Shown piece after piece: positions 7,324 through 62,715 of a stretch of DNA of 64,000 bases. The notes below the pieces were generated by a model. It was given only the letters and a program-made list of their open reading frames with translations. It had not been told where the DNA came from and did no database searches. Within the stretch, counting starts at the first letter, position 1. Each line of letters begins with the position of its first letter. The DNA comes from Flavobacterium sp. KMS (lineage in GTDB: Bacteria; Bacteroidota; Bacteroidia; Flavobacteriales; Flavobacteriaceae): positions 62,001-126,000 of the forward strand of contig NZ_JSYP01000026.1 in NCBI RefSeq assembly GCF_000813005.1. Reading direction: 5' to 3'. The position numbers were made by a program, and so were the translations under genes.

Positions 7324-7339
7324 CTAAAATTTTGAAATT

Positions 7340-7347
7340 CAAAGATA
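7340..7347 (-). promoter_or_regulatory. Bacteroidota-type -7 promoter element
   Basis: On the minus strand the bases read TATCTTTG, a match to TAnnTTTG. It lies 17 bp before the start of the Cys-rich protein gene. I saw no clear -33 TTTG partner at the normal distance. Confidence 0.5.
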
Positions 7348-7392
7348 CAATATATTTTTTTTAATGATAAAATTATGTGGCTGCTGTGAAAA

Positions 7393-7640
7393 TGGAACGC
7401 GGATGACGCGGATTTACTAAAGTAAAGACGCGGATAAAAACGGATTTTTAAAGTAATCCGTAAAGAAAAAAATCCGTTTTTATCCGTGTTTTCGCGATAG
7501 CGAATCCGCGTCATCCGTGTTCCGTGTTTTTTTTTGCCACAGATTAAAAGATTAAAATGATTCCTCTCGAAATTTAAAACTTTAAAAATCCGTTTTAATC
7601 CGTGTTTTCGCGATAGCGAATCCGTATCATCCGCGTTCCC
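7393..7640. repeat. Long inverted repeat plus direct copy (CGGATGACGCGGATT family)
   Basis: The left arm 7393-7446 and right arm 7469-7522 are largely reverse complements: GGATGACGCGGATT pairs with AATCCGCGTCATCC, and CGGATAAAAACGGATTTTT pairs with AAAAATCCGTTTTTATCCG. A second copy of the right arm is at 7587-7639. Each right-arm copy contains the small palindrome TTCGCGATAGCGAA. A fragment of another dispersed repeat, GCCACAGATTAAAAG, lies between them at 7536-7550. The whole 7324-7688 gap is occupied by the promoter above and these repeats; I see no gene in it. Confidence 0.85.
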
Positions 7641-7688
7641 TTTTTAGACAATCAAAAGAAACACAATACAATTTGAAATTAAAAAAAA

Positions 7689-15983: not shown

Positions 15984-15989
15984 AGGAAA

Positions 15990-16190
15990 GGTACTGAGGT
16001 TCTGAGTGACAAAGGTTCAAAGGTTTTACCAATATTGTGTAGAAGAGGTCCTGAGAAACTAAGTGACTAAGTTTCTCAGAAGCTAAAAAACTTAGTACCT
16101 AAGAACCTTAGCCACTTAGAACCTTAAAGAAAACCTTTGAACCTTTGAACCTCTTTTAAAAAACCTTTGAACCTTCCTCAAACAACTCAT
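15990..16190. repeat. Cluster of ACCTTAG/ACCTTTGAACC-type intergenic repeats
   Basis: The gap 15984-16313 is dominated by low-diversity words: GAGGTTCTGAGTGAC, CTTAGTACCTAAGAACC, CCACTTAGAACCTTA and repeated AACCTTTGAACCT. Within it CTGAGAAACT at 16050-16059 pairs with AGTTTCTCAG at 16071-16080 to form a hairpin. The same words recur in many other gaps in this window. No gene is seen in the gap. Confidence 0.8.
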
Positions 16191-16313
16191 CCCTAAAAAT
16201 CAACAACTCAGTAACATAAAATTTAAAGAGAATAAATTCTATAATACTTTTGAAGTATAAATTAACAAACGTTTCAATCATCAAAAAATAACTAAACCTT
16301 AAAACAAGAAATC

Positions 16314-19873: not shown

Positions 19874-19877
19874 TTTT

Positions 19878-20042
19878 TCTAGCCACAGATTTAAAAGGTA
19901 CAGAGGTTCATAGGTACAAAGGTTCAAAGGAAGGAAACTTTGCGCTCTTTGCGGCTAATTTTTTTTGCCACAGATTAAAAGGATTAAATGGATTTTAAAC
20001 TTTGCGAACTTTGTGTAAAACTTCGCGAACCTTGCGGTTAAA
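19878..20042. repeat. Dispersed intergenic repeats (CCACAGATTAAAAGG and TTTGCGNNCTTTG types)
   Basis: The convergent gap holds two copies of GCCACAGATT (19881 and 19967), GGTACAAAGGTTCAAAGG, and a run of AAACTTTGCG/AACCTTGCGG words. The same words appear at 7.5, 20.9, 54.6 and 55.8 kb. No gene is present. Confidence 0.75.
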
Positions 20043-22631: not shown

Positions 22632-22714
22632 TTTTTTTACTTGAGGTGCAAAATTGCAAAAATGCAAAGTTGCAGAGTCTCCTATTTTGGGTTAATAATT
22701 CTCTAATATATTTT

Positions 22715-22855
22715 TAATTAAGGCTCTAAGATGCTAAGGTTCTGAGGTTCTAAGTTTTTTATTTTTTTCAGAAACTTATTCACTTAGTTTCTCAATGCCT
22801 TAGCACCTTTTCTACGCATATTTGGTAAAACCTTTGTGCCTTTGAACCTTAATTA
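22715..22855. repeat. GGTTCTGAGG/ACCTTAG-type repeat between ctaA and the tRNA nucleotidyltransferase gene
   Basis: The words GGCTCTAAGATGCTAAGG, TTCTGAGGTTCTAAG and, in opposite orientation, TTAGCACC and CCTTTGTGCCTTTGAACC form an inverted arrangement around the central hairpin TCAGAAACTT/TAGTTTCTCA. It reaches into the last codons of the downstream gene, whose final ...TKGSK overlaps TTTGAACCTTTCG. Confidence 0.7.
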
Positions 22856-39580: not shown

Positions 39581-39670
39581 ATAAGTAACAAAGGTACAGA
39601 GGTTCAAAGCAACAAAGGTTTTAGTCCTAGAGTGTAAGAAACTTTAGTTTTACATAAAACAACCCCAAGC

Positions 39671-39774
39671 TTGTCATTTCGACGAAGGAGAAATCTCCGC
39701 AAGAAACTAACTCACCGTTTTTTTCTTAAATTGTCGAGCTACTCGTGGAGATTTCTCCTTCGTCGAAATGACAA
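39671..39774. repeat. Perfect 28-bp inverted repeat (TTTCGACGAAGGAGAAATC)
   Basis: Bases 39671-39698 and 39747-39774 are exact reverse complements, containing TCATTTCGACGAAGGAGAAA and its mirror, around a 48-bp centre. ACCTTTG-type repeats flank it on both sides. The gap 39581-39877 contains no gene. Confidence 0.92.
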
Positions 39775-39877
39775 AAATGCGCAGACTAAGTTTAAACTTG
39801 AGTTTTTCTCAAAGTTCCTTATTCTCTTGGTTTTTAACCTCTGAACCTTTGCCTCTTAAAACCTAAAAAAAAGAAAA

Positions 39878-43802: not shown

Positions 43803-44005
43803 ATGCCTTAATTTTTGATATTTAAATACAACAATCGCTTTACGAACAAATAAAATAACGTTCTTAAAGGTATAATAACACTTTCATAATATCTTACCAT
43901 TCTTTGATTAACAAACCACTTTTACTTTTGGGACAATTAAAAAAGAGTCTTTGTCTCAACCAAAAGACTTTTATCCAAAAATCAAATTTTGCTAAAGACA
44001 CCACT

Positions 44006-45283
44006 ATGAAAAAAAATTTACACCTTGTAATTATTTGTTTAGTAAGTAGTATTATAGTCAATGCACAACAACAAAAAGGGATTGTTGGCGCATCAAACTG
44101 GATGAATAAATGGACAAATTTTAAACCTGCATCAATAGAATATAATGAAGCTACAAATATTCTGGCAGGAACTATCGACAAGGATACCAAATTATATAAG
44201 CGAAATACATATCAATTAGTTGGTGTTGTATATTTAACCAATAATGCTGTATTAACAATCGAACCCGGAACGGTAATAAGAGGAGATGATAAAACTTGTG
44301 GTACACTGGTAATAACAAATGGCTCTAAGATAATGGCAGAAGGGTTAGAAACTGACCCAATTATCTTTACATCTAACAAGAATGTTGCCGAAAGAAAACC
44401 TGGAGATTGGGGCGGAATAATCCTTCTGGGAAAAGCACCGATTAATAAAATGGGTGGAGTTAGTTTCTTAGATTTTAATCTAGATCCTGTTGTAAATCAC
44501 TATGGCGGACAAGATGCTGACGATAACTCTGGTATTTTAAAATACATACGTATCGAATACTCTGGTAGAAAATTAAATGCTCTAAAAGAAATTAATGGTT
44601 TATCATTGGCTGGAGTTGGTCGTAAAACCAAGTTAGAATATATTCAGATCAGTTATTCTAATGATGATTCTTTTGAATCTTATGGCGGAGATGTCGTTAT
44701 GAATAACTTAGTTTCCTACCGAGCTACCGATGATGATTTTGATTTTACACAAGGAGTACAATGCACTATAAATAATAGTATTGCCATTCGTCATCCCTAC
44801 TCTTCGGATATTTCAGGTTCAAGATGCTTTGAAATCGATTCGTATGACAAAATAGAAAGTACAGATACAAGCAAAAAACTAACCAAGATAACTGCCAATA
44901 ATATCACCTTGGTAAATCTGGAAGAAAGCAATCAAGGACTTGTTCGCGAAGCTGCACATATAGGAGAAAATAGTTATTTTACCTTAAATAATAGTGTAAT
45001 CTCAGGTTTTACACCCTTTATGGTTTTTCAAGGAAAAATTGGAGATGGAATAGTTAACCTTGAAAAAATTAAACTAAACGGATTAATAATCAATAACTGT
45101 CAAGGTGCTATTTTAAGCGAAAATTCTAACTTCGATTCGGGCATCAAAAACTGGTATCAAAACCCTGCATTTAACTTAGAATATACAACTATAAGAAATG
45201 TCGCATTATTTACAGAACCTAATATTAAAGCAAATCCAGATTTTAGAATGAACTTAAATAATACATTAGTCAGTGGAAATTAA
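44006..45283 (+). CDS. Exported surface-type protein of beta-helix character, unknown function
   Basis: About 425 residues from the ATG at 44006 (MKKNLHLVIICLVSSIIVNAQ), which gives a signal peptide; an in-frame start 102 bp upstream is less likely. The body has NNAVLTIEPGTVIRGDDK, then DPIIFTSNK, PGDWGGIILLG and GILKYIRIEYSG, a pattern of short turns typical of right-handed beta-helix surface proteins in Bacteroidota. There is no type IX secretion C-terminal domain that I can recognise. Function unknown. Confidence 0.75.
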   Translation: MKKNLHLVIICLVSSIIVNAQQQKGIVGASNWMNKWTNFKPASIEYNEATNILAGTIDKDTKLYKRNTYQLVGVVYLTNNAVLTIEPGTVIRGDDKTCGTLVITNGSKIMAEGLETDPIIFTSNKNVAERKPGDWGGIILLGKAPINKMGGVSFLDFNLDPVVNHYGGQDADDNSGILKYIRIEYSGRKLNALKEINGLSLAGVGRKTKLEYIQISYSNDDSFESYGGDVVMNNLVSYRATDDDFDFTQGVQCTINNSIAIRHPYSSDISGSRCFEIDSYDKIESTDTSKKLTKITANNITLVNLEESNQGLVREAAHIGENSYFTLNNSVISGFTPFMVFQGKIGDGIVNLEKIKLNGLIINNCQGAILSENSNFDSGIKNWYQNPAFNLEYTTIRNVALFTEPNIKANPDFRMNLNNTLVSGN

Positions 45284-45381
45284 GCCATTAAAATGGGATA
45301 CTTAAATTAAATTTAACAAAAAACTCAAAAAAATAGAGATTTTTTTTAAAACAATGTATACGAATACTCAAATTACATTTA

Positions 45382-45389
45382 TATATTTG
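45382..45389 (+). promoter_or_regulatory. -7 element of the trp operon promoter
   Basis: TATATTTG matches TAnnTTTG and lies 17 bp before the leader-peptide ATG at 45407. The -33 element is not obvious. Confidence 0.65.
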
Positions 45390-45406
45390 TACCAACAAAA
45401 AAGTTT

Positions 45407-45463
45407 ATGAAAACAATTACAAATAATACTTGGTGGTGGAACAATTTACGTCAGACGTCGTGA
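45407..45463 (+). CDS. trpL: Tryptophan operon leader peptide
   Basis: The 18-codon frame encodes MKTITNNTWWWNNLRQTS with three consecutive Trp codons at 45431-45439 and a TGA stop at 45461-45463. It has its own promoter upstream and an intrinsic terminator 42 bp downstream of the stop codon. When charged tRNA-Trp is scarce, the ribosome should stall on the Trp codons. It is too short for routine gene calling, but Trp content, position and the following hairpin make it convincing. Confidence 0.92.
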   Translation: MKTITNNTWWWNNLRQTS

Positions 45464-45534
45464 ACTAAGCTTCCTATGGTATTATTCAAACTATAAATAT
45501 GAAAGGCTTGTCATCACGACAAGTCTTTTTTTTT
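45457..45534 (+). promoter_or_regulatory. Transcription attenuator of the trp operon
   Basis: The terminator is GGCTTGTC (45505-45512) paired with GACAAGTC (45518-45525), loop ATCAC, followed by nine T. The alternative pairing is GTCGTGA (45457-45463), which overlaps the leader stop codon, with TCACGAC (45514-45520), which takes up the terminator loop and the 3' half. A ribosome at the stop codon would cover GTCGTGA and allow termination; stalling at the Trp codons would free it and allow read-through. The layout is seen; the mechanism is inferred from classical trp attenuation. Confidence 0.87.
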
Positions 45535-45585
45535 GTTCATAATTTTCCGGAAAATAATATATTAAATCTTAAAAAAATCAACACA

Positions 45586-46986
45586 TTGAAACCTTTTATA
45601 CTCAACACACACTACAAACAAATCCTTGCAGACACTGTAACGCCTGTGAGCATTTACTTTAAAATTAGAGATAAATTTCCTAATAGTTTATTGCTGGAAA
45701 GTAGCGATTATCACGGAAACGATAATAGTTTCTCTTACATATGCTGCAACCCAATTGCAAGTATTAAAATCGAGAACGAAACTATTTCTAAAGCTTATCC
45801 TGATGGAACTACAGAAAAAATAGCAATTGATGATTCGACTAATATTCCAGAAATTATTCAGGAATTTTCAGGACAATTTAAATCGGAGAAAAACGATTTC
45901 AAATTTATCAACAACGGATTATTTGGCTATATCTCTTACGATGCCGTTCGTTATTTCGAAAAAGTAACTATTGCAAAAAAAGACAATAGCATTTCTATTC
46001 CTGATGTATATTATGCAGTTTATCAAAATATAATTGCAATAAATCATTTTAAAAACGAAGCTTATATCTTTTGCCATAGCGTAGATGGAAGAAATAATAT
46101 TTCTGAAATAGAACAATTATTGCAATCAAGAAATATTGCTTCATACCAATTCTCTAAAGAAGGCGAAGGATTCTCAAATCTAACCGATGAAGAATTTAAG
46201 CATAATGTAGCTTTAGCAAAAAAACATTGTTTCCGTGGCGATGTGTTCCAGTTAGTTTTATCACGTCGATTCACACAAGGATTTAAAGGTGATGAATTTA
46301 ATGTGTACAGAGCATTACGAAGCATCAATCCTTCACCTTATTTATTCTTTTTTGATTATGGTGATTTCAAAATATTTGGTTCTTCGCCAGAAGCACAAAT
46401 TATTGTAAAAAATCGTAAAGCCGAAATTCATCCTATTGCCGGAACTTTCAAAAGAACAGGAAATGATGAACAAGATGCCATTCTTGCCAAACAATTATCT
46501 GAAGATAAAAAAGAAAATAGTGAGCACGTAATGTTAGTCGATTTAGCCAGAAATGATTTAAGCCGAAACGGACACGATGTAAACGTAGAGAAATATCGTG
46601 AAGTACAATTCTTCTCTCATGTAATACACTTAGTATCAAAAGTTACAGGACATTTACATGAAAAAGCAACTACAATGCAAGTCGTAGCCGATACTTTTCC
46701 GGCAGGAACATTAAGCGGAGCACCAAAACACAGAGCCATGCAACTTATAGAAGAATACGAAAAAACCAATCGTACTTTTTATGGTGGTGCTATCGGTGTT
46801 ATGGATTTTGAAGGCAACTTTAACCATGCCATCATGATTCGAACTTTCCTGAGTAAAAACCACCAATTGCATTGCCAGGCTGGAGCTGGAATCGTAGCAA
46901 ACTCAGACGAAGAAAGCGAAATGCAAGAAGTATATAATAAATTAAGAGCATTAAATACCGCTCTTGAAATGGCAGAGAAAATTTAG
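45586..46986 (+). CDS. trpE: Anthranilate synthase component I
   Basis: The 466-residue enzyme makes anthranilate from chorismate with TrpG. Conserved motifs are FGSSPEAQIIV, the EIHPIAGTFKRTG loop, MLVDLARNDLSRNG, FPAGTLSGAPKHRAM and FYGGAIGVMDFEGNF. I place the start at TTG 45586 (then KPFILNTHYKQ), because this gives the usual family N-terminus. The in-frame ATG at 45499 lies inside the attenuator hairpin, so a product from it would carry 29 odd residues. The trp leader is 120 bp upstream. Confidence 0.93.
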   Translation: MKPFILNTHYKQILADTVTPVSIYFKIRDKFPNSLLLESSDYHGNDNSFSYICCNPIASIKIENETISKAYPDGTTEKIAIDDSTNIPEIIQEFSGQFKSEKNDFKFINNGLFGYISYDAVRYFEKVTIAKKDNSISIPDVYYAVYQNIIAINHFKNEAYIFCHSVDGRNNISEIEQLLQSRNIASYQFSKEGEGFSNLTDEEFKHNVALAKKHCFRGDVFQLVLSRRFTQGFKGDEFNVYRALRSINPSPYLFFFDYGDFKIFGSSPEAQIIVKNRKAEIHPIAGTFKRTGNDEQDAILAKQLSEDKKENSEHVMLVDLARNDLSRNGHDVNVEKYREVQFFSHVIHLVSKVTGHLHEKATTMQVVADTFPAGTLSGAPKHRAMQLIEEYEKTNRTFYGGAIGVMDFEGNFNHAIMIRTFLSKNHQLHCQAGAGIVANSDEESEMQEVYNKLRALNTALEMAEKI

Positions 46987-47086
46987 TACTCGGTCGCAGT
47001 TTTTTAGTCTTAAGTTCCGAACGAAAAGCTTAAAAATTACAACTTAACAAACCAAACATTAAATAAAAATTAAACAACTAAAAACT

Positions 47087-47545
47087 ATGAAAAACACTAT
47101 TGGATTATTATTGGTTATGGTATTTTTAACTTCTTGCAACGAGAAAAACAAGCAAGAGACTACAAGTATTAAAAAAGACATTGAAGGAACCTGGCGACTT
47201 ATATCGGCAGAGACAACCGAAAAAGATTCAACTTTTTCAACATTCAATCCAAAAACCAAAATGATTAAAATTATAAATGACTCCCACTTTGCATTCTTTA
47301 ACCATGACTTAAATAACGGGAAAAAAGCAGATGCACTATTCTTCGGAGGTGGAGGAAAATATACTTTAAAAGATAGTACATACACAGAGAATTTAGAATA
47401 TTTCAATAATAGAGACTGGGAGAACAACAAATTTGAATTTACAGTAAAATTTAAAAACGATACCTTAATTCAAAAAGGAGTTGAAAAAATTAAAAAACTT
47501 GGAATAGATAGAATAATCATCGAAAAATACGTTCGAGAAAAATAA
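47087..47545 (+). CDS. Lipocalin-like lipoprotein inserted between trpE and trpG
   Basis: The 152-residue product has a lipobox signal (LLLVMVFLTSCNE). The mature part has IEGTWRLISAETTEKD, then HFAFFNHD and GGGGKYTLKDSTYTENLEYF, the pattern of lipocalin-like small beta-barrels of Bacteroidota. It has no link to tryptophan synthesis. It lies 100 bp after trpE and 98 bp before trpG on the same strand, so it is carried in the trp transcript or has its own promoter. Confidence 0.8.
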   Translation: MKNTIGLLLVMVFLTSCNEKNKQETTSIKKDIEGTWRLISAETTEKDSTFSTFNPKTKMIKIINDSHFAFFNHDLNNGKKADALFFGGGGKYTLKDSTYTENLEYFNNRDWENNKFEFTVKFKNDTLIQKGVEKIKKLGIDRIIIEKYVREK

Positions 47546-47643
47546 AATAAAAAATTAGTTGCCAGTTTCAGTATTCAGTCACAGTTTAAAACTTAGCACC
47601 TCAGTCCCGAAACTTCGGGATAGCAACTTAGAACCTCAAAAAA

Positions 47644-48210
47644 ATGAAAAAAATACTAGTAATAGATAACTACGATAGCTTCACTTATAATCTTGTACAT
47701 TATCTGGAAGATTTAAATTGCGAAGTAACAGTGTACAGAAATGATGAATTTGATATTGATGAAATAGCAAGTTTCGACAAAATATTACTTTCACCAGGAC
47801 CAGGAATTCCAGACGAAGCAGGTTTACTAAAAGCTGTTATTCAAAAATATGCATCAACCAAAAGCATACTAGGCGTTTGTTTAGGACAACAAGCCATAGG
47901 AGAAGTTTTTGGAGGAACATTATCAAACCTTGACAAAGTATATCATGGCGTAGCTACCAATGTGAAAACGGTTGTAGATGATGAACTTTTATTTGAAGGT
48001 TTAGGAAAAGAATTTGAGGTAGGACGTTATCACTCATGGGTTGTCGATGCAACTTTACCCGATGTTCTCGAAGCTACATCTTACGACGAAAACGGACAAG
48101 TAATGTCATTAAGACACAGAACCTATGATGTACGTGGAGTACAATTTCATCCCGAAAGTGTATTGACACCAAACGGGAAAAAAATGTTAGAGAACTGGGT
48201 TAAGAGTTAG
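47644..48210 (+). CDS. trpG: Anthranilate synthase component II (glutamine amidotransferase)
   Basis: The 188-residue class I glutamine amidotransferase has LVIDNYDSFTYNLVHYLEDL at the start, LLSPGPGIPDEAG, the nucleophile motif GVCLGQQAIGE and the His-Glu pair of VQFHPESVLTPNGK. It supplies ammonia to TrpE. An ACTTAG/CCTCA-type repeat with the palindrome TCCCGAAACTTCGGGA (47606-47621) fills the spacer before its ATG. Confidence 0.95.
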   Translation: MKKILVIDNYDSFTYNLVHYLEDLNCEVTVYRNDEFDIDEIASFDKILLSPGPGIPDEAGLLKAVIQKYASTKSILGVCLGQQAIGEVFGGTLSNLDKVYHGVATNVKTVVDDELLFEGLGKEFEVGRYHSWVVDATLPDVLEATSYDENGQVMSLRHRTYDVRGVQFHPESVLTPNGKKMLENWVKS

Positions 48211-48312
48211 TCTTTAGTTTACAGTAATCTGTCGCAGTATTCAGTCGCAGTTTACCATTTAAAGAAAAAACTTAGTAACTCAGAACCTTAGAACCTTAGC
48301 AACTTAAAAAAA

Positions 48313-48720
48313 ATGAATATCAGAATTTTAGAAACCAAAGAAATTAATATCGAAGATATAATAACATTGTATAAAGCCAATGAATGGAGTTCGGCAGAAA
48401 AACCTGATTTATTATATAAAGCACTTTTAAATTCTGAAACTTTAATTACTGCTTGGGATGACAAAAAACTTGTTGGACTTGGAAATGCAATTTCCGACGG
48501 TTATCTAACTGTTTATTATCCACATTTATTAGTACTCCCAGAATATCAAGGAAAAGGAATAGGCAAAATGATTTGTGATAAAATGCAGGAAAAATATCGT
48601 GACTTCCATATGCAAATGTTAACCGCTGATGGAAAATCAATAGAGTTCTATACCAAAAATGGATTTGAACGTGCAGGACAAACAGAACCAATGTGGATTT
48701 ATCAAGGAAACGAACATTAA
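48313..48720 (+). CDS. GNAT-family N-acetyltransferase inserted between trpG and trpD
   Basis: The 135-residue protein has the GNAT acetyl-CoA loop VLPEYQGKGIGKMICDKM and FYTKNGFERAGQTEPMWIY at the end. Its substrate is unknown. It is not a trp enzyme. The 102-bp spacer before it is made of CAGTATTCAGTCGCAG and CAGAACCTTAGAACCTTAGC repeats, which end in an A-run directly before the ATG. Confidence 0.88.
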   Translation: MNIRILETKEINIEDIITLYKANEWSSAEKPDLLYKALLNSETLITAWDDKKLVGLGNAISDGYLTVYYPHLLVLPEYQGKGIGKMICDKMQEKYRDFHMQMLTADGKSIEFYTKNGFERAGQTEPMWIYQGNEH

Positions 48721-48777
48721 ATCAGTATTCAGTAAGCAGTACGCAGTCACAGTAAAAAACTTAGAGCCTAAAAAAAA

Positions 48778-49779
48778 ATGAAAAATATATTAAACAAATT
48801 AACCAATCACGAAGTCCTTACTAAAGATGAGGCTAAAAACGTATTGATTAATATATCAAATGGTGATTATAACCCAAGTCAGATATCGGCATTCTTGACC
48901 ATATTTATGATGCGAAGTATTAACATCGAAGAATTAGCAGGCTTTCGCGAAGCCTTATTAGACTTATGCATTCGCGTAGATTTATCGGCTTACAATACCA
49001 TCGATTTAGTTGGAACTGGTGGAGACGGAAAAGATACTTTCAACATTTCAACTCTGGCTTCATTTGTTACGGCTGGTGCAGGAATAAAAGTAGCCAAACA
49101 TGGTAATTACGGAGTTTCTTCTATTTCGGGTTCTAGTAATGTCATGGAAAAAATGGGAATCAAATTCTCCAATGATCCTGATTACATTGAAAAATGCATC
49201 GACAAAGCTGGAATTGCCATACTTCACGCCCCATTATTTCACCCCGCAATGAAAAATGTAGGTTCAATAAGAAAAGAATTGGCAGTAAAAACATTCTTTA
49301 ATATGCTGGGACCAATGGTAAATCCATCGTTTCCAAAAAATCAATTATTAGGTGTATTTAACCTTGAATTGGCTAGAATGTATGCGTATTTATATCAAAA
49401 TACCGATGTAAATTTCACAATATTACATTCGCTAGATGGTTATGATGAGGTTTCATTAACTGGTCCAACAAAGATTATTACAAACACGATGGAAGGTATG
49501 TTAAATCCGAGTGATTTTGGCGTTCGTCTTTTAGCACAAAGCGAAATACACGGAGGAAATTCTATCGAAGAATCAGCCGAAATCTTTGCATCAATCATTT
49601 CAGGAAAAGGAACCGAAGCTCAAAATAATGTGGTTTGCGCTAATGCAGCATTGGCAATTGCAACGGTTACAAAATGTACACCGCTAGACGGTTTTGGATT
49701 AGCAAAAGAAAGTTTACTTTCTAGAAACGCACACAAAGCGTTAAAGAAATTGCAAGAATTAAGTAAATTGAAAAATTGA
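48778..49779 (+). CDS. trpD: Anthranilate phosphoribosyltransferase
   Basis: The 333-residue enzyme joins anthranilate and phosphoribosyl pyrophosphate. The PRPP motif is LVGTGGDGKDTFNIST; KHGNYGVSSISGSSNVMEKM and HPAMKNVGSIRKELAVKT also match the family. The last codons, including the TGA stop at 49777-49779, lie in the left arm of a 30-bp inverted repeat that surrounds the next gene, so that repeat may have replaced the original 3' end. Confidence 0.95.
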   Translation: MKNILNKLTNHEVLTKDEAKNVLINISNGDYNPSQISAFLTIFMMRSINIEELAGFREALLDLCIRVDLSAYNTIDLVGTGGDGKDTFNISTLASFVTAGAGIKVAKHGNYGVSSISGSSNVMEKMGIKFSNDPDYIEKCIDKAGIAILHAPLFHPAMKNVGSIRKELAVKTFFNMLGPMVNPSFPKNQLLGVFNLELARMYAYLYQNTDVNFTILHSLDGYDEVSLTGPTKIITNTMEGMLNPSDFGVRLLAQSEIHGGNSIEESAEIFASIISGKGTEAQNNVVCANAALAIATVTKCTPLDGFGLAKESLLSRNAHKALKKLQELSKLKN

Positions 49780-50314
49780 AAGATTTAATGATTTAAAAAT
49801 TAAAAAATTGCTAGACGAAATAAAACCATTTAAAATTTTGAAAACATTAAAATATCAACCCTACATATTTTTAAATCTTTCATTATTAAATAAAAAAATT
49901 ATGACAAAATCTTTCGAAGAATTTGAAGTTTATAAAAAAGGTATTCAATTAGCAAAATTAATTTTTCAATTATTAAATCACAAACCGTTTGAAAAGGAAT
50001 TTGGTTTTAAAGATCAGATAAAACGAGCCGTAATTTCTATTACAAACAACATTGCAGAAGGCTCTGAATATAACAATAACAAACAATTGATAAGGTATTT
50101 AAAAATTTCAAAAGGAAGTTGTGCAGAAGTAAGAAGTATGTTGATATTATCTCGTGAACTTGGTTTTTGTAACCAAACAGAAATTCAAGAAAGTTATCAA
50201 ATAAGCATTGAGATTTCACAAAATTTATCAAATTTTATAAAATATCTAAGTACAAAAATTAAAGATTAATTTATAAACACACTGAATTTTTAAATCATTA
50301 AATCTTTCAATTTT
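49772..50314. mobile_element. Candidate cassette: four-helix bundle gene bracketed by a perfect 30-bp inverted repeat
   Basis: Bases 49772-49801 (AAAATTGAAAGATTTAATGA then TTTAAAAATT) and 50285-50314 are exact reverse complements. Between them lies only the four-helix bundle gene. A further direct-type copy, TTTTTAAATCTTTCATTATT at 49868-49887, precedes the gene's ATG, mirroring the leader in front of trpC. Together this looks like an inserted unit that copied its flanks. No transposase is present, so its mobility would need help from outside. Confidence 0.55.
49901..50269 (+). CDS. Four-helix bundle protein (S23/bAvd-like) between trpD and trpC
   Basis: The 122-residue protein has the family core FGFKDQIKRAVISITNNIAEG, given here in pieces as FGFKDQIKRA and ITNNIAEGSEY, then IRYLKISKGSCAEVRSMLIL. 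Relatives are the proteins encoded in 23S rRNA intervening sequences and the Avd accessory of diversity-generating retroelements; both bind nucleic acid. The ATG at 49901 begins the conserved MTKSFEEFEVY; an earlier in-frame start adds nothing conserved. A second member is at 62313. Confidence 0.88.
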   Translation: MTKSFEEFEVYKKGIQLAKLIFQLLNHKPFEKEFGFKDQIKRAVISITNNIAEGSEYNNNKQLIRYLKISKGSCAEVRSMLILSRELGFCNQTEIQESYQISIEISQNLSNFIKYLSTKIKD

Positions 50315-50334
50315 AAATAAAAAAAATAACAATC

Positions 50335-51114
50335 ATGAATATTTTAGACAAAATAATTTTCGATAAAAAAAGAGAAGTTGTTCTTAAAAAATCAATAATT
50401 CCAGTTTCGCAATTGGAAAGTTCTGTGTTTTTTGAAAGAAAAACTATTTCTTTAAGTCAAAAACTAAAAGTAAGCTCAACAGGAATCATTGCCGAACACA
50501 AACGTCGTTCTCCATCTAAATCTGTCATAAACCAAAGTTTTACGGTAGAAGAAGTGGTAAAAGGATACGAAAATGCAGGCGCTTGTGGAATTTCAGTTTT
50601 AACCGATGGGAAATATTTTGGAGGTTCACTCGATGATTTACTTTTGGCAAGAGCATCGGTAAATATTCCGTTATTGCGAAAAGAATTTATTATTGATGAA
50701 TACCAAATATTAGAAGCCAAAGCTTATGGAGCCGATTTAATTTTGCTTATCGCTGCGGTTTTAACAAGAGAAGAAATCAAGTCATTATCTGAATTTGCAA
50801 AAAGCTTAGGATTAGAAGTTTTACTAGAAGTTCATAATCAGGAAGAATTAGAAAAATCGATTATGCCAACGCTGGATATGATCGGAGTTAATAACAGAAA
50901 CCTAAAAACGTTTGAAGTTAGTCTGGATTTCAGCAAACAATTAGCAGCACAAATTCCTGATGATTTTATAAAAGTTTCCGAAAGCGGAATCTCCTCTGTC
51001 GAAGCCATTAACGAATTAAAACCTTATGGTTACAAAGGTTTCTTAATTGGTGAAAACTTTATGAAAACCGATAACGCAGGACAAGCAGCTATTGACTTTA
51101 TTAGTCAGCTATAA
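50335..51114 (+). CDS. trpC: Indole-3-glycerol phosphate synthase
   Basis: The 259-residue TIM-barrel enzyme closes the indole ring. The motif IAEHKRRSPSKSVI holds the catalytic Lys, followed by ISVLTDGKYFGGSLDDL, PLLRKEFIIDEYQI, DLILLIAAVLT, IGVNNRNLKTFEV and VSESGISSVEAI. It is a single-function TrpC, not fused to TrpF. Confidence 0.96.
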   Translation: MNILDKIIFDKKREVVLKKSIIPVSQLESSVFFERKTISLSQKLKVSSTGIIAEHKRRSPSKSVINQSFTVEEVVKGYENAGACGISVLTDGKYFGGSLDDLLLARASVNIPLLRKEFIIDEYQILEAKAYGADLILLIAAVLTREEIKSLSEFAKSLGLEVLLEVHNQEELEKSIMPTLDMIGVNNRNLKTFEVSLDFSKQLAAQIPDDFIKVSESGISSVEAINELKPYGYKGFLIGENFMKTDNAGQAAIDFISQL

Positions 51115-51119
51115 GCTTT

Positions 51120-51192
51120 ATGCTGTAAGCAATAAGCCTTCTTAACATTACTAATTTAGCTTAAAGCCTAAAGCTTAAAGCCAAAAGCATCA
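51120..51192. repeat. TAAAGCCTAAAGC-type repeat before trpF
   Basis: The spacer between trpC and trpF reads TGCTGTAAGCAATAAGCC, then TTAGCTTAAAGCCTAAAGC and TTAAAGCCAAAAGC, a run of short near-repeats ending 6 bp before the ATG. It is a different word set from the ACCTTAG spacers but has the same position. Confidence 0.65.
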
Positions 51193-51197
51193 AAAAA

Positions 51198-51821
51198 ATG
51201 AAATTAAAAATCTGTGGTATGAAATATCCCGACAATATAACCGAAGTAGGCTCGCTCCTACCCGATTATATGGGATTTATATTCTGGGAGAAATCGGCTC
51301 GATATTTTGACGGAATCATTCCCGATTTACCAAAATCGATTAAGAAAGTTGGTGTTTTTGTGAATCAAAGTCAGAAAGATATTCTAGATAAAATTTCGAA
51401 ATACGATTTGCAGGCCATTCAATTACACGGTCACGAATCAGTTGAATTTTGTCAGGAATTAAAAAATAACATTGATCCTAAAATCGAACTTATCAAAGTG
51501 TTTTCTGCCGATGAAAATTTTGATTTTGAAGTATTAAAACCATACGAATCAGTTTGTGACTATTTCCTTTTTGATACCAAAGGAAAGTTACCCGGCGGAA
51601 ACGGAACTGCATTCAATTGGAGCATATTAAACAAATACAATTCGAAAAAACCATTCTTCCTTAGTGGCGGAATCGGAATAGAAGAAGTAGCAACAATAAA
51701 AGAGATTTCGAAAACCAATTTACCTATTTATGCCATCGATGTAAACAGTAAATTCGAAATCGAACCAGGGTTAAAAGATAAAAACATATTATATAGTTTC
51801 AAACAAAACTTACAACTTTAA
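51198..51821 (+). CDS. trpF: Phosphoribosylanthranilate isomerase
   Basis: The 207-residue TIM-barrel enzyme begins with the signature LKICGMKYPDNITEV (catalytic Cys). It has IQLHGHESVEFCQEL, FLFDTKGKLPGGNGTAFNWS and the final phosphate loop FLSGGIGIEEV. It carries out the Amadori step between TrpD and TrpC. Confidence 0.95.
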   Translation: MKLKICGMKYPDNITEVGSLLPDYMGFIFWEKSARYFDGIIPDLPKSIKKVGVFVNQSQKDILDKISKYDLQAIQLHGHESVEFCQELKNNIDPKIELIKVFSADENFDFEVLKPYESVCDYFLFDTKGKLPGGNGTAFNWSILNKYNSKKPFFLSGGIGIEEVATIKEISKTNLPIYAIDVNSKFEIEPGLKDKNILYSFKQNLQL

Positions 51822-51876
51822 ACAGTAAAGACGCACCAAATGCATCTCTACACATAACATTATAAAAAAATAAACT

Positions 51877-53058
51877 ATGTCATACAACGTTAACGAAAAA
51901 GGCTATTATGGAGAGTTTGGAGGAGCCTACATTCCAGAAATGTTATATCCAAACGTAGAAGAACTACGCCAAAACTACCTAAAAATTACTGCCGACCCAA
52001 GCTTTCAAGCCGAGTTCGATGCACTATTAAAAGATTATGTAGGTCGCCCTACTCCATTATATTTTGCCGAAAGACTTTCGAAAAAATACAATACCAAAAT
52101 CTACTTAAAAAGAGAAGATTTATGTCATACAGGAGCACATAAAGTAAACAATACTATTGGACAAATTTTGCTTGCAAAACGTCTTGGTAAAAACCGAATT
52201 ATTGCCGAAACCGGTGCAGGTCAACATGGAGTTGCAACGGCTACAGTTTGTGCATTAATGGGATTGCAATGTATTGTATATATGGGCGAAATCGACATTA
52301 AGCGTCAAGCGCCAAATGTGGCTCGTATGAAAATGTTAGGCGCAGAAGTTCGTCCGGCACTTTCAGGTTCTAAAACCTTAAAAGATGCTACAAACGAAGC
52401 CATTCGCGATTGGATCAATAATCCTGTAGATACCTATTATATCATCGGTTCTGTGGTTGGTCCACATCCTTATCCCGATATGGTAGCACGTTTTCAAAGT
52501 GTGATTTCTGCCGAGATAAAAACGCAATTATTAGAAAAAGAAGGTCGCGAAAACCCAGATCACGTTATTGCTTGTGTTGGTGGAGGAAGTAATGCTGCCG
52601 GAGCTTTTTACCATTTCTTAGACGAAAAAAACGTAAATATTATTGCTGTCGAAGCAGCAGGTCTAGGAGTTGATTCAGGCGAAAGTGCTGCAACATCGGC
52701 ATTAGGAAAAATCGGAATCATTCACGGAAGTAAAACATTATTAATGCAAACTCCCGACGGACAAATTACCGAGCCATATTCTATCTCGGCAGGTTTAGAT
52801 TACCCAGGAGTTGGTCCAATGCATGCTCATTTATTTGCATCTGGCAGAGCCGAATTTATTTCGATTACCGATGACGAAGCAATGCAATTTGGCTTGCAAT
52901 TATCCAAAACCGAAGGAATTATTCCAGCAATCGAAAGCGCGCATGCCTTTGCCGTTCTGGAAAAAAAGAAATTTGGACCAGACGAAATCGTAGTTATTAA
53001 TTTATCAGGTCGTGGCGATAAAGATTTAAATACGTATATCGATTATTTCAAGTTATAG
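51877..53058 (+). CDS. trpB: Tryptophan synthase beta subunit
   Basis: The 393-residue PLP enzyme condenses indole and serine. It begins with [15 protein letters not shown]; the PLP lysine is in [13 protein letters not shown]. The glycine-rich loop is [12 protein letters not shown] and the C-terminal part has [16 protein letters not shown]. The length and motifs match TrpB1-type enzymes. Confidence 0.97.
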
Positions 53059-53059
53059 T

Positions 53060-53173
53060 TGGGCGTTACCGTCAGAAAAAGACGGTCGGATTTCCCGATA
53101 GCTATAGGGACGCTATATCTTTTTAAGGCTAAAAAAAAAAACTAAAAAAGGATGTCGCTTTTATCCCTAACGC
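53060..53173. repeat. Second copy of the GGGCGTT...TCCCTAACGC repeat
   Basis: The element starts at GGGCGTTACCGTC, contains a local hairpin (CCGTCAGAAAAAGACGG) and CGCTATATCTTTTT, and ends with AAGGATGTCGCTTTTATCCC then TAACGC. Its partner is at 34414-34495. It lies directly after the trpB stop codon, in front of the inserted LysE gene. Confidence 0.8.
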
Positions 53174-53226
53174 AAATCGAGCATCAGTAGAATTAGTTCC
53201 AAAAAAAACAATTAAAAATTAAGAAT

Positions 53227-53862
53227 ATGAACGGTATAATTCATTATGAAACTTTTATTTTAACGGGATTACTTTTAAATATAACTCCTGGTAATGATAC
53301 TATTTTCATATTAAGCAGAAGTATGGCACAAGGAAAAAAAGCTGGATTTATGTCTGTACTAGGAATTGCTACAGGCTCCTTAATACATACAATCCTTGCT
53401 GCATTTGGACTTTCTATTATTATTGCCAAATCTATACTCGTTTTTAGTATTATTAAATATGCCGGTGCCGCTTACTTATTATATATTGGCTACCAAATGC
53501 TCACGGACAAAACTCGACTTAATACTGATGTTTCTTTTTCAGAGAAATCAATTAATCTAAAAAAAATATACAGAGACGGAGTAATAACAAATGTATTGAA
53601 TCCAAAAGTAGCATTGTTTTTCATTTCGTTTCTACCACAATTTATAGATTCTGGTTTAAAAAATACTATTGTCCCTTTTATAACACTTGGAATAACATTT
53701 ACAATTACAGGAACAATATGGTGCTTATTTTTAGCGAACTTTTCTTCTATAATTTTTGCAAAACTAAAGTATAACAAGAAACTTTCAAATTATATAAACA
53801 AAAGTTGTGGAGCTGTTTTAATAGGTTTAGGAATAAAAGTAGCACTAACAAATAAGAACTAA
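53227..53862 (+). CDS. LysE/RhtB-family amino-acid exporter
   Basis: The 211-residue membrane protein has six helices and the family start LLLNITPGNDTIFILSRSMA (the TPGPD-like motif), then GIATGSLIHTILAAFGL and VTNVLNPKVALFFISFLPQF, given in pieces. It exports amino acids or related molecules. Its place between trpB and trpA leaves open a role in tryptophan or indole export, but LysE proteins sit in many contexts. Confidence 0.9.
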   Translation: MNGIIHYETFILTGLLLNITPGNDTIFILSRSMAQGKKAGFMSVLGIATGSLIHTILAAFGLSIIIAKSILVFSIIKYAGAAYLLYIGYQMLTDKTRLNTDVSFSEKSINLKKIYRDGVITNVLNPKVALFFISFLPQFIDSGLKNTIVPFITLGITFTITGTIWCLFLANFSSIIFAKLKYNKKLSNYINKSCGAVLIGLGIKVALTNKN

Positions 53863-53880
53863 ATAACACAAATTATTAAA

Positions 53881-54618
53881 ATGATATTAGCAGCAGCTCA
53901 GACCAAACCAAAACGAGGAGATATCGATTCAAATTTATTGGATCATTATCGTCTTATAGAATTGGCAATAACAAAAAATGCCGATTTAATCGTATTTCCA
54001 GAACTATCGATTACAGGTTATGAAAGAGAAAATGCAAGTGAACTTACTTTCACAGAAAATGATTCACGATTAGAGCATTTAAAAAAATTAGCTGTAGATA
54101 ATAAGATTGTAATTGTTGCTGGAGCACCTATAAAAATTAAAGACCAATTGTTTATTGGAGAATTTATTATTTCTCCAGACAATTCGGTTTCTATTTATAC
54201 AAAGCAATTTCTTCATGAAGGCGAAGATGTTTATTATCAATCGTCTTTTGATTATAATCCAACAATCGAATTAGAGAACAAAAAAATCTCTTTTGCCATT
54301 TGTGCCGATATTGATAATCCGCTGCACCCAAAAAATGCAAGCGAGAATAAAACTGCAATTTATATTGCCAGTATTTTCTTTACGCCAAACGGAATTCCTG
54401 TTGCGTATAAAGCGCTACAAGATTACGCCAGCACCTACAAAATGAATGTGCTTATGTCTAATTTTAGTGGTGAATCATGGGGATATCCTTCAGGTGGAAA
54501 AAGTGCATTTTGGAATAATAAAGGTGAATTAATCGCTCAAATGAATGATTCGGATGCTGGATTATTGATTGTAAAAAATCAAAATGATACTTGGACAAGT
54601 GAGATTGTAAAAATTTAA
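53881..54618 (+). CDS. Carbon-nitrogen hydrolase (nitrilase superfamily)
   Basis: The 245-residue enzyme has the Glu-Lys-Cys triad: Glu in LIVFPELSITGYE, Lys in YTKQFLHEGE and Cys in SFAICADIDNP. It hydrolyses amides or carbamoyl groups; the substrate is unknown. It is 18 bp after the LysE gene, so the two form one pair inserted between trpB and trpA. Confidence 0.9.
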   Translation: MILAAAQTKPKRGDIDSNLLDHYRLIELAITKNADLIVFPELSITGYERENASELTFTENDSRLEHLKKLAVDNKIVIVAGAPIKIKDQLFIGEFIISPDNSVSIYTKQFLHEGEDVYYQSSFDYNPTIELENKKISFAICADIDNPLHPKNASENKTAIYIASIFFTPNGIPVAYKALQDYASTYKMNVLMSNFSGESWGYPSGGKSAFWNNKGELIAQMNDSDAGLLIVKNQNDTWTSEIVKI

Positions 54619-54624
54619 AAAAAT

Positions 54625-54775
54625 AATGCCACAGATTAAAAGGATTTTCACAGATTAAAGAAAAAGTGAAATAATTTTACAGTAGAAATCAATGATAATT
54701 CTTTTTAATCTGTGGCAAAAAAATTAATAATGTACCTAACAGTCCTGTCCCGAAGTTTCGGGATCGGGATAAAAC
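54625..54775. repeat. GCCACAGATTAAAAGG inverted pair and CCCGAAGTTTCGGGA palindrome before trpA
   Basis: GCCACAGATTAAAAGG at 54628-54643 is mirrored by CTTTTTAATCTGTGGC at 54701-54716. Next comes CCCGAAGTTTCGGGATCGGG at about 54748-54767, the same palindrome family as before trpG. The 180-bp trpA leader consists almost wholly of these. Confidence 0.8.
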
Positions 54776-54797
54776 CGTTAGACTAAAAAATAAAAAA

Positions 54798-55559
54798 ATG
54801 AACAAAATAAATCAAAAACTACAAGAAGATAAAAAGATACTTTCTATCTATTTTTCTGCGGGATATCCTAATCTTAGTGATACCGTGCAAATCATTCAGG
54901 ATTTAGAAAAAAGCGGAATCGACATGATCGAAATCGGATTACCATTTAGTGATCCTTTGGCCGATGGACCAACAATTCAGGCAAGTTCTACTCAGGCATT
55001 GCATAACGGAATGACAACTCAGGTTTTATTTAACCAACTAGAAAAAATTCGCGAAAGCGTAACAATCCCGTTGGTAATAATGGGCTATTTTAACCCGATT
55101 CTACAATATGGAGTCGAAGAGTTTTGCAAAAAATGTGCTGCAATAGGAATCGATGGATTAATTATTCCTGATCTTCCTGTAGATGTTTATGCAGAACAAT
55201 ACAAAGAGATTTTCGAAAAACACGGCTTAATAAATGTATTCTTAATCACGCCACAAACGTCTGATGATCGTATAAAATTTATCGATAGCGTTTCTAACGG
55301 ATTTATATACATGGTAAGTTCTGCAAGTGTTACTGGTTCTCAATCTGGTTTTGGTAGCACGCAAGAATCATATTTTAAACGTATTGCCGATATGAACCTT
55401 AAAAATCCACAGGTTATTGGTTTTGGAATTAATAATGCTGAAACATTTAATCAGGCAACTCAATTTGCAAAAGGAGCCATTATCGGAAGTGCTTTTATCA
55501 AACATTTATCTGAAAAAGGAACAGGAAATATTGCTGAGTTTGTAAAGGCTATTAGATAA
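54798..55559 (+). CDS. trpA: Tryptophan synthase alpha subunit
   Basis: The 253-residue TIM-barrel enzyme cleaves indole-glycerol phosphate. It has IEIGLPFSDPLADGPTIQAS with the catalytic residues, PLVIMGYFNPILQYG, DGLIIPDLPVD and IYMVSSASVTGSQSGF. It is separated from trpB by 1.7 kb that holds the LysE and nitrilase genes. Confidence 0.96.
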   Translation: MNKINQKLQEDKKILSIYFSAGYPNLSDTVQIIQDLEKSGIDMIEIGLPFSDPLADGPTIQASSTQALHNGMTTQVLFNQLEKIRESVTIPLVIMGYFNPILQYGVEEFCKKCAAIGIDGLIIPDLPVDVYAEQYKEIFEKHGLINVFLITPQTSDDRIKFIDSVSNGFIYMVSSASVTGSQSGFGSTQESYFKRIADMNLKNPQVIGFGINNAETFNQATQFAKGAIIGSAFIKHLSEKGTGNIAEFVKAIR

Positions 55560-55580
55560 CATATTAATTTTATTATTAAA

Positions 55581-55742
55581 AGCTCCAGCGGAGCGCAATA
55601 TTTATAGCCAATACAAAATGTTCGTTCAATTAGCTCCAGCGGAGCGATATATTTATTTTTCTTATAATTACTAAAATGTCACCCCGATGGGGTTTCTTTG
55701 AAAATGATTGAAATTTTTATAAATATAGCGTCCCGCTGGGAC
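55581..55742. repeat. Short palindromic repeats (AGCTCCAGCGGAGCG, ACCCCGATGGGGT, GTCCCGCTGGGAC)
   Basis: AGCTCCAGCGGAGCG occurs at 55581 and 55632. ACCCCGATGGGGT is at about 55681 and GTCCCGCTGGGAC at about 55730. Each is a compact GC hairpin spaced by about 50 bp in an AT-rich background, the appearance of REP elements. AAATCTGTGGC follows at about 55780. The gap 55560-55839 has no gene. Confidence 0.85.
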
Positions 55743-55839
55743 TTTATATACAAGAGCTTAATTAATTAAAATCTTTTAAATCTGTGGCTTAAAAACAATT
55801 TAGCAAATAGAAACATAGATTAAAAAAAATCAATACAAA

Positions 55840-56520
55840 ATGGATTTAGCCTCTCATTACAACAATTTGTTCATGGAATCCTGTGAGAAAATATCGAATG
55901 ACAATTATGTTATCGATATGCAAATTGATGATTTGAGTGATAACCGTTTAGGAATTACATTATTAATTAGACCTTCAGAAGAGATTAAAAATAGCATTCA
56001 ACTTTTTTTAAATGAATTAAAAGAAGTTGATGCTTCTCAATATTATTATCCTAATTCGGATATTCATATTACAATACTATCTATTATATCTTGTTATGAT
56101 GGATTTGATTTAAACAACATTACAATACAAGATTATGTTGCTTTAATTAATAAATGTATTGCTGGTTTAAATAAATCAGTAATTAATTTACACGGAATTA
56201 CTGCCTCCCCTTCGGCAGTAATGATTCAGGGATTCCCAAGCGATACAAGTATAAACGATTTACGAGATAATCTTCGTACAGCGTTTAAAGAAACTACTCT
56301 CGAACAAAGTATCGATAAACGATACTCTTTATTTACTACACATTTAACGGTTGTAAGGTTCAGAAAACCTATAAAAAACAAGGATTTATTCTTAAAAACA
56401 CTACACAAATACCGTGATTATAACTTCGGAAAATTTGAAATAAAAAACCTCGAATTGGTACATAATGATTGGTATCAAAGAGCTGAATTTATCAAAACTT
56501 TATCTGATTTTAAAATCTAA
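55840..56520 (+). CDS. 2H phosphoesterase / 2'-5' RNA ligase-like protein
   Basis: The 226-residue protein has the two H-x-T/S-x motifs of the 2H superfamily: HITILSI near residue 71 and HLTVVRF near residue 168, each in a strand-turn context. The fold hydrolyses or ligates 2'-5' phosphodiester or cyclic phosphate bonds in RNA or nucleotides. The exact substrate is unknown. It is not linked to an operon by spacing. Confidence 0.82.
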   Translation: MDLASHYNNLFMESCEKISNDNYVIDMQIDDLSDNRLGITLLIRPSEEIKNSIQLFLNELKEVDASQYYYPNSDIHITILSIISCYDGFDLNNITIQDYVALINKCIAGLNKSVINLHGITASPSAVMIQGFPSDTSINDLRDNLRTAFKETTLEQSIDKRYSLFTTHLTVVRFRKPIKNKDLFLKTLHKYRDYNFGKFEIKNLELVHNDWYQRAEFIKTLSDFKI

Positions 56521-62219: not shown

Positions 62220-62280
62220 ATTCTTGAGGTACTAAGGTTCTAAGTTGCAAAGATTCTAAGTTTTAAAAAATTAAAGATTT
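62220..62280. repeat. GGTACTAAGGTTCTAAG-type repeat upstream of the second four-helix bundle gene
   Basis: GAGGTACTAAGGTTCTAAGT at 62225-62244 and AAGATTCTAAGTTTTAAA follow. The opposite orientation of the same family, AGTACCTTTAAAACTTAGCA then CCTCAGAACCT, lies after the gene at about 62677-62708, so the gene is bracketed by an inverted pair. Confidence 0.75.
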
Positions 62281-62312: not shown

Positions 62313-62672
62313 ATGAGTAATTTCAAAAAGCTTTTAATCTGGCAAAAATCGATGTCCTTAATTACCAAAATCTATATTTCAACAAATAATTTTCCAAAAG
62401 AAGAAGTCTTCGGATTAACTTCACAAATAAGACGAAGCTCGATTTCAATTCCAAGCAATATTGCTGAAGGATTTGGACGAGAAAGCAACAAAGATTTTTT
62501 ACGCTTTTTAAACATTTCAATAGGTTCTTTATTTGAAATGCAAACACAATTAGAAATTGCTAAAAATATAGCATATCTAAACGAAGACGAATTTAATAAT
62601 TTATATGAGGATAGTCGAGAAGTAGAAAGAATGTTAGTTTCTTTTATTAATAAATTAAAAGAAAGAAGCTAA
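62313..62672 (+). CDS. Four-helix bundle protein, second copy
   Basis: The 119-residue protein has the same core as the trpD-trpC insert: FGLTSQIRRSSISIPSNIAE, then GFGRESNKDFLRFLNISIGS and LFEMQTQLEIA. It is a diverged paralogue. It lies between the pRiA4-like gene and the nucleoid-associated protein gene, in a spacer bordered by inverted ACCTTAG-type repeats. Confidence 0.88.
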   Translation: MSNFKKLLIWQKSMSLITKIYISTNNFPKEEVFGLTSQIRRSSISIPSNIAEGFGRESNKDFLRFLNISIGSLFEMQTQLEIAKNIAYLNEDEFNNLYEDSREVERMLVSFINKLKERS

Positions 62673-62715
62673 ATCTCAGTACCTTTAAAACTTAGCACCT
62701 CAGAACCTAAAAAAA

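Follow-up and report, generated by a model that had tools for sequence, protein, structure and literature searches.

The trpD-trpC junction of Flavobacterium sp. KMS

The DNA analysed here, referred to throughout as the window, is a stretch of 64,000 nucleotides from Flavobacterium sp. KMS (assembly GCF_000813005.1, contig NZ_JSYP01000026.1, positions 62,001 to 126,000 of the forward strand). In its trp operon a small gene of the S23 family lies between trpD and trpC, the two host genes being named from gene order and from a preliminary description of the same DNA, and short tandem units are arrayed in opposite orientations on its two sides. The features of this junction are:

48778..49779, + strand: trpD, the upstream host gene
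49764..49808, + strand: left array of degenerate 8-nt units (ATTGAAAA, ATTGAAAG, ATTTAATG, ATTTAAAA, ATTAAAAA)
49867..49897, - strand: additional copy of the unit array, inverted, lying between left arm and S23 start
49901..50269, + strand: four-helix-bundle gene of the S23 (23S-rRNA-intervening-sequence) family, 122 codons
50285..50320, - strand: right array, the left unit inverted, containing the perfect arm 50285-50314
50335..51114, + strand: trpC, the downstream host gene

The preliminary description reported that 49772-49801 and 50285-50314 are exact reverse complements, and they are, at 30 of 30 positions; the match is not extendable in either direction, and in 60 dinucleotide shuffles of 49701-50400 no exact inverted repeat exceeded 18 (the mean of the longest being 11.25). 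The left array starts within the final trpD codons, the perfect arm which it contains includes the trpD stop codon, as had been said, and the S23-like gene is, again as described, the only sizeable one between the arms. The arms are tandem arrays of degenerate 8-nt units (ATTGAAAG / ATTTAATG / ATTTAAAA) and not plain repeats; the left array has a lag-8 score of 25 against a shuffle level of 9, and the periodicity of the right array, taken alone, is below the level at which arrays were flagged. A third copy noted just before the ATG is also real, and it is of the right-arm type because 49871-49897 is 93% identical to 50298-50324; with the left arm it makes an imperfect hairpin (49780-49800 with 49867-49887, 81%). 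In most trp-site relatives the array reaches the ATG without such an extra inverted copy, as judged from junctions compared by eye. By the same kind of inspection, the right arm of the window reads as a copy of its left arm and that of most relatives is somewhat different, and the exact 30/30 match is a local detail. In general terms the element is an S23 cassette of ~540 bp, in which the gene stands between two inverted arrays of ~4-5 degenerate 7-8-nt units each.

A second cassette of the window, with 45-nt arms that are 76% complementary and a unit different from that of the trp-site cassette, consists of:

62221..62265, + strand: left array of CTAAG-type 8-nt units (L010, positions 1403-1447)
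62313..62672, + strand: second S23 gene (S23b), 34% identical to the first
62670..62714, - strand: right array (L010, positions 1852-1896)

A third S23 gene of the genome, on another contig (L213), has units of ~7 nt by eye and 20-nt arms that are 85% complementary, with a score of only 13 by the standard inverted-repeat measure defined below. Arrays are also found without S23, in 7 of the 41 window gaps of at least 50 bases that do not flank an S23 gene. Three spacers of the trp operon itself (48211-48312, 48721-48777 and 51115-51197) carry their own 7-8-nt arrays (CTTAG, CAGT, AGCTTAA) without an S23 gene. Periodic arrays without a gene lie at 15984-16313, 19874-20042, 22632-22852 and 39581-39877, three of the four being flagged for inverted repeats as well, and a 365-bp spacer at 7324-7688 has an inverted-repeat score of 44 without significant 7-8-nt periodicity.

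The S23 protein

The product of 49901-50269 matches PF05635 (7.2e-30, 103.8 bits; cut-off 33.8) and TIGR02436 (7.3e-28, 97 bits; cut-off 24), and the Pfam search found no transposase domain in it. An AlphaFold2 model of the trp-site S23 has four helices and a mean pLDDT of 95.1. In Foldseek searches this model matched 2gsc (TM 0.82-0.92) and 2rld (TM 0.76-0.88), five chains of each being among the matches, and 2gsc has been described as a homopentamer (PMC4990558). By analogy with these homologues, from which the ring state is known, the trp-site S23 would belong to a ring-forming family. More weakly, the model matched Avd (4dwl; TM 0.73-0.87, E 0.05 or weaker, sequence identity 8-10%), to which a resemblance of PF05635 has been noted before (PMC10053308), and also the ribonucleoprotein of a diversity-generating retroelement or DGR (8ub7). 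For 14 chosen trp-site genes the median pN/pS was 0.148 (91 pairs), and as judged from this ratio the S23 protein at the trp site is under purifying selection. The trp-site S23 of one genome (L124, from G051) aligns from residue 12 on (L334: 12-120), with a start out of frame upstream, and this copy is probably broken.

Inverted arrays around S23 genes in other genomes

By HMM search, 60 of the 61 genomes of the genus have an S23 match, and in a sample of the phylum the family occurs in 223 of 296 genomes and 112 of 139 genera. The inverted-repeat score compares the 200 nt upstream with the 200 nt downstream of a gene, with a threshold of 16. It was applied to 80 named loci, mostly Flavobacterium and Chryseobacterium, and to stretches from the genus; the 80 genus stretches favour good matches because their rows were chosen roughly in score order, some being skipped. 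Their 213 S23 reading frames were reduced to 206 by removing those with a flank under 150 nt and exact duplicates. The threshold is reached by 172 of these 206 Flavobacteriales S23 genes. In the comparison sets, shuffled sequences reach it in 6 of 618 cases, neighbour genes in 44 of 628 and cross-paired arms in 338 of 2000. A phylum-wide sample of 40 stretches, chosen for family variety and with a few S23 genes from the genus of the window, gave 34 of 68 S23 genes against none of 24 controls. Among plasmid-borne relatives, for which 15 of 24 records were taken (14 from Cyanobacteriota, one from Azospirillum) and counted without a neighbour-gene control, nine of 15 reached the threshold and six did not. 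It had been suggested beforehand that the repeat might prove to occur alone just as often as with the gene: gene-less arrays and hairpins are common indeed, but bracketing is far commoner at S23 genes than at their neighbours. On three of the cyanobacterial plasmids (L360, L369 and L371), S23 genes with inverted arrays lie within CRISPR-Cas operons, in the orders cas6 - S23 - cas4 and cas10 - S23 - cmr3.

By a simple periodicity test, for which ~2.5 units are needed, arrays flank both sides of 104 of 274 S23 genes (controls, 29 of 628) and at least one side of 201 of them (controls, 177 of 628). Where both arrays were found (n=104) the periods were 8/8 in 64 cases and 7/7 in 37. The median number of units is 4.6 on the left and 4.7 on the right; the match to the five subunits of a pentamer is loose, four being the commonest value, and arrays next to control genes are longer (median 6.5 units). 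The left arm has more G than C in 148 of 172 elements, the reverse holding in 11 and the two being equal in 13, and the inverted arms of control genes have no such bias (19 versus 18 of 44). Gene calls for the strand-sense test were crude, and 17 of the 274 S23 genes were set aside for want of a neighbour within 600 nt on both sides; both neighbours run in the direction of the cassette in 242 of the remaining 257 (controls, 153 of 216), and S23 never lies between a reversed upstream gene and a non-reversed downstream gene (0 of 257; controls, 26 of 216). From these counts it appears that the arrays have a fixed orientation and that the cassettes lie mostly in the sense of their neighbours.

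The arms as a possible RNA stem

The preliminary description placed the gene in the loop of an exact stem, and an element acting at the level of RNA might be built in this way. Its arms would make a long stem in the operon transcript and be cut by RNase III, as in the intervening sequences (IVS) of 23S rRNA, the cut releasing the S23 mRNA or separating the trpD and trpC messages, with movement being secondary. The RNA of the window does fold accordingly, its optimal structure and its centroid each containing all 30 pairs (z -2.95; none of 100 shuffles as good), and the shared sense of cassettes and neighbours points in the same direction, as does the presence of one cassette within a 23S rRNA gene (L373, below). 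The pairing does not appear to be selected in register, however: among 99 elements the arms match about equally well one unit out (identity 0.777, as compared to 0.786 in the best register), and the in-register match is better in only 47. The lengths of left and right arrays are weakly correlated (rho 0.21; within 8 nt of one another in 52 of 104 elements, with 50 expected). At the trp site an element's own arms are not better matched than arms paired across species, 456 of 2000 permutations doing as well, and at the site of the second window cassette a preference for own arms is clear in one arm type (2/2000) and weak in the other (64/2000). The register test, and the own-arm test in two of three sets, thus speak against an in-register stem as a selected feature; a loose stem is still compatible with the data because some stem forms in any register. 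A search of 48000-52000 against Rfam gave no match at gathering score and only three sub-threshold hits. On balance we regard an element that acts primarily through its RNA as unlikely.

Array type and S23 lineage

Unit sequence goes with S23 lineage, also in unrelated genomic contexts, so far as sequence comparison can tell. The comparisons were confined to elements scoring at least 16 (172/206). Where flanks lack homology, pairs of S23 genes at least 70% identical have the same array type and orientation in 384 of 410 cases and the opposite orientation in nine, as compared to the same type and orientation in 100 of 10469 pairs below 45% identity; the 384/410 and 100/10469 counts are dominated by one oversampled clade, that of the window gene. 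A set of 88 HMM-sampled elements from the genus, in which the type was shared by 17 of 24 pairs at 70% identity or more, nine of 36 at 60-70%, one of 105 at 50-60% and 19 of 3378 below 50%, runs in the same direction, but with a faster turnover of units.

The number of array-pattern hits per genome also follows the gene. With a cognate S23 defined as one at least 60% identical to the window gene (11 of 101 genomes), the median is 10 hits in genomes that have one (n=11) and one hit in those that do not (n=90; p 1.9e-5), and the difference persists after four own-arm hits are subtracted (p 0.0017). Exceptions occur on both sides: one genome with a cognate gene has no array hits (G086), and 12 of the 90 genomes without a cognate gene have five or more, up to 61. 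The genome with 61 hits of the ATTTAAAG array pattern (G015) has no S23 of at least 60% identity to the window gene, and its arrays are possibly relics left after loss of that gene.

Turnover at the trpD-trpC junction

An S23 gene lies between trpD and trpC in 30 of the 80 named loci, with Galbibacter among them. Units of 8 nt are visible by eye at all 30 of these junctions, of which at least three are formally under the threshold (L060 at 15, L061 at 15 and L089 at 14), and the expectation under which the preliminary description would have failed, that relatives keep the gene without the repeat, is not borne out. The arrays vary in unit number, by eye to roughly a dozen on the left of one locus (L052) and on the right of another (L070).

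Among the closest loci, taken as the best 30 of 136 genomes with a trpC match, S23 is present at the junction in four and gave no hit in 26. The preliminary description had proposed a search of relatives for an empty site: S23 is indeed absent from these 26, but the site is not empty in any of the 30 because hairpins or arrays fill every S23-less junction, namely a GTTTCA hairpin in 12, a CACAAAT/TTTGTG hairpin in 10, a CTTAG array in three and an unclassified occupant, by eye a hairpin, in one. On a tree of trpD and trpC the occupant type changes 17 times, the mean for shuffled types being 15.1 and values as low being found in 198 of 200 shuffles. The occupant of the trp site therefore turns over, S23 cassettes alternating with gene-less hairpins or arrays of other types. 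At several of the trpD-trpC junctions (L127, L128, L131 and others) there are GTTTCAAG hairpins with a common loop like GTTGTTGGAACG; they look like a dispersed family because a similar one flanks an unrelated control gene.

Exchange of gene and arrays at the second site

The site of S23b was followed in the best 30 of the 99 genomes that have its downstream gene in a search of 101 genomes. S23 is present in 23 of these loci and was not seen in seven, one of which ends at a contig edge; the arms of the 23 are of two types, CTRAG in 12 and CARAG in 11. On the S23 tree (22 rows, the short sequence of L305 being kept for the host trees only) a single change of arm type is seen. The tree of the downstream gene has eight, the shuffled mean being about eight and the starred branches forcing at least five, and that of the two flanking genes has nine (at least six forced), one clade being rejected at p 7.8e-46. 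Only two genes underlie the host trees, and few of the branches are strongly supported (6/20 starred). Identity over the nearest 60 nt is no greater within types than between them (0.887 versus 0.891 upstream, 0.887 versus 0.893 downstream). The exchange is sharp at the cassette borders because flank identity is independent of type even in these 60 nt, and with one change on the S23 tree against eight or nine on the host trees, and no trace in the flanks, the gene and both arrays have been exchanged as one unit.

Five residues differ consistently between S23 proteins of the CTRAG and CARAG types (F33Y, S58G, G71S, K84F and I86L in the numbering of the window S23b) and are candidates for array recognition. 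Beside its present S23 gene, one locus (L302) has a stretch of 22 residues resembling the C-terminus of a window-like S23, apparently an older one. Differential loss from two ancestral adjoining cassettes would also give two types at one site; it seems improbable, in that none of the 23 loci was seen to contain CTRAG and CARAG cassettes together and the sole remnant, that of L302, is followed by arms of the present cassette's type. Recent transfer is not the rule at this site: of 110 same-type pairs, only 43 have S23 genes closer to one another at third codon positions than their flanks are (median difference -0.021). The strongest example of transfer is L306/L319, with third-position identity of 0.873 in S23 and of 0.716 and 0.709 in the flanks.

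Ordinary homologous recombination among Flavobacterium species could also turn such sites over, with S23 and the arrays being simply old neighbours in one intergenic region. Repeated reuse of the same site would be expected if homologous flanks recombine, S23 does not as a rule exceed the flanks in similarity, as the 43 of 110 pairs indicate, and at the trp locus identity over the outermost 60 nt of trpD depends on type (0.813 within and 0.760 between types; none of 500 permutations), this being a stretch that the array enters. Against these points, the first 500 nt of the flanks are no more alike within types at the 23 loci of the second site or, beyond those last 60 nt of trpD, at 29 trp loci (L147, of unclear type, being left out), and no other flank bin, including the nearest 60 nt of the second site, has a significant excess of within-type identity; related S23 genes with matching arrays also occur in contexts without flank homology. 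Recombination breakpoints inside the 60 nt may have been a route of the exchange at the second site, but flank identity gives no support to recombination in the flanks outside the part of trpD that the array enters, and we consider this explanation quite improbable.

Comparison with known systems

The nearest parallel is found in the 23S rRNA IVS of Coxiella, Leptospira and others, which share with the window element a sense-strand ORF of the S23 family and terminal inverted repeats that can form a stem. The IVS of Coxiella has two or three GACAGAT heptamers and one GACAGAA directly before the S23p ORF, and its ends form a 28-bp stem (PMC4990558). Its ORF is decaying and probably not expressed (PMC4990558), which differs from the purifying selection at the trp site, and the available text of that study describes neither lineage-specific units nor exchange at a fixed site. 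An S23 gene on an Azospirillum plasmid (L373) is located within a 23S rRNA gene (RF02541; the whole stretch scores 2139.5 bits) between inverted arrays of GGACAGA-like units, and the same kind of array therefore brackets S23 in a true rRNA IVS. Lying between trpD and trpC, outside 23S rRNA, the element of the window is not an IVS by strict membership, its cassettes being found in protein operons instead; it is built like one.

Avd of the diversity-generating retroelements, which works together with a reverse transcriptase, has the same fold as S23 at the low sequence identity given above. The ORFs of 44000-56000, judged by trp-operon position, include no reverse transcriptase adjacent to the cassette, the only RVT_1 match of the window genome is on another contig (C12), and 30 of the 61 genomes of the genus have none. 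REP elements are dispersed short intergenic repeats, and the cognate RAYT transposase gene is flanked by the same repeats. S23 cassettes resemble them in combining dispersed short intergenic repeats with a cognate gene flanked by these, but the gene of the window is a PF05635 member and not a transposase, its repeats are arrays of 7-8-nt units, and no PF01797 (Y1_Tnp) match was found in the window genome. Mobilisation in trans by a known enzyme of either kind, a reverse transcriptase or, as for REP elements, a Y1 transposase, is a very improbable explanation for cassettes and gene-less hairpins: the S23 fold matches Avd and the DGR ribonucleoprotein, and the arrays, with their cognate gene, look like a family of dispersed repeats, but neither enzyme is universal enough in the genus to be a necessary partner (RVT_1 in 31 of 61 genomes, Y1_Tnp in 40 of 61), and both are absent from two genomes (G052 and G053) that have cassettes at the second site (L310 and L301, respectively), the latter genome also having a cognate trp-site S23.

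Direct repeats of a TAACTGA heptamer have been reported from Beggiatoaceae, Cyanobacteria and Bacteroidetes; they form intergenic arrays and in one genome lie mostly a few nucleotides before start codons (PMC4679880). They thus resemble the S23 arrays in kind and, in part, in the phyla where they occur, and the available text of that report contains no instance of S23, four helix, 23S or intervening, and hence no link to S23. In the literature searched, which included few subscription journals, S23 genes have not been linked to flanking arrays of heptamers or octamers except in the Coxiella IVS paper. The S23 protein family, IVS elements and Avd are already known; what was not found there is that arrays specific to a lineage bracket S23 genes generally, that cassettes are exchanged at fixed sites within protein operons, and that rRNA IVS have the same design.

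A proposed mechanism

The reading that we favour, with a probability of about 0.58, is that of an S23 cassette in which gene and arrays are exchanged jointly at a fixed site inside an operon, the S23 pentamer recognising its own arrays. The comparison of loci indicates that this exchange is independent of the flanking host genes. Whether as DNA or as RNA, the units in its own arrays would be recognised by the pentamer, with roughly one subunit per unit; we infer such recognition because what is conserved is the unit, repeated in tandem, placed in inverted orientation at the two ends and linked to the protein. Self-recognition would keep the gene and its ends together, and it would allow a site already occupied by a gene-less array hairpin to be taken over, either by a cassette or by another such hairpin. 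Cutting and joining would probably fall to a host enzyme. Both the binding and the agent of movement are put forward here as predictions from sequence comparison. The preliminary description, which proposed a small mobile cassette without its own transposase, is in this respect upheld, by the joint exchange of gene and arms at the second site and by the many contexts in which S23 genes have lineage-specific arms; since its exact stem is not supported as stated, it is upheld in part.

More broadly, and with somewhat less than an even chance of being right, S23 genes may constitute an unnamed class of minimal mobile element that spans several phyla. An Avd-like ring would read a lineage-specific word of 7-8 nt about five times per inverted end, gene-less hairpins would travel by means of the cognate S23, cassettes would displace one another precisely at fixed operon sites, and the 23S rRNA IVS would be the branch that settled in rRNA.

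Implications

The role of the S23p-bearing intervening sequences of rRNA has been unclear for over 25 years (PMC4990558). The proposal made here would give S23 binding a concrete and testable target, and the CTRAG and CARAG cassettes at one site are natural variants on which a swap could be tried experimentally. Across Bacteroidota, a common small gene is often found between inverted runs of a short word linked to its lineage, a design that it has in common with inserts in rRNA genes. The proposal also suggests that intergenic repeats of one class in Bacteroidota are linked to a gene, and that the spacers of operons may be exchanged between species without their flanks.
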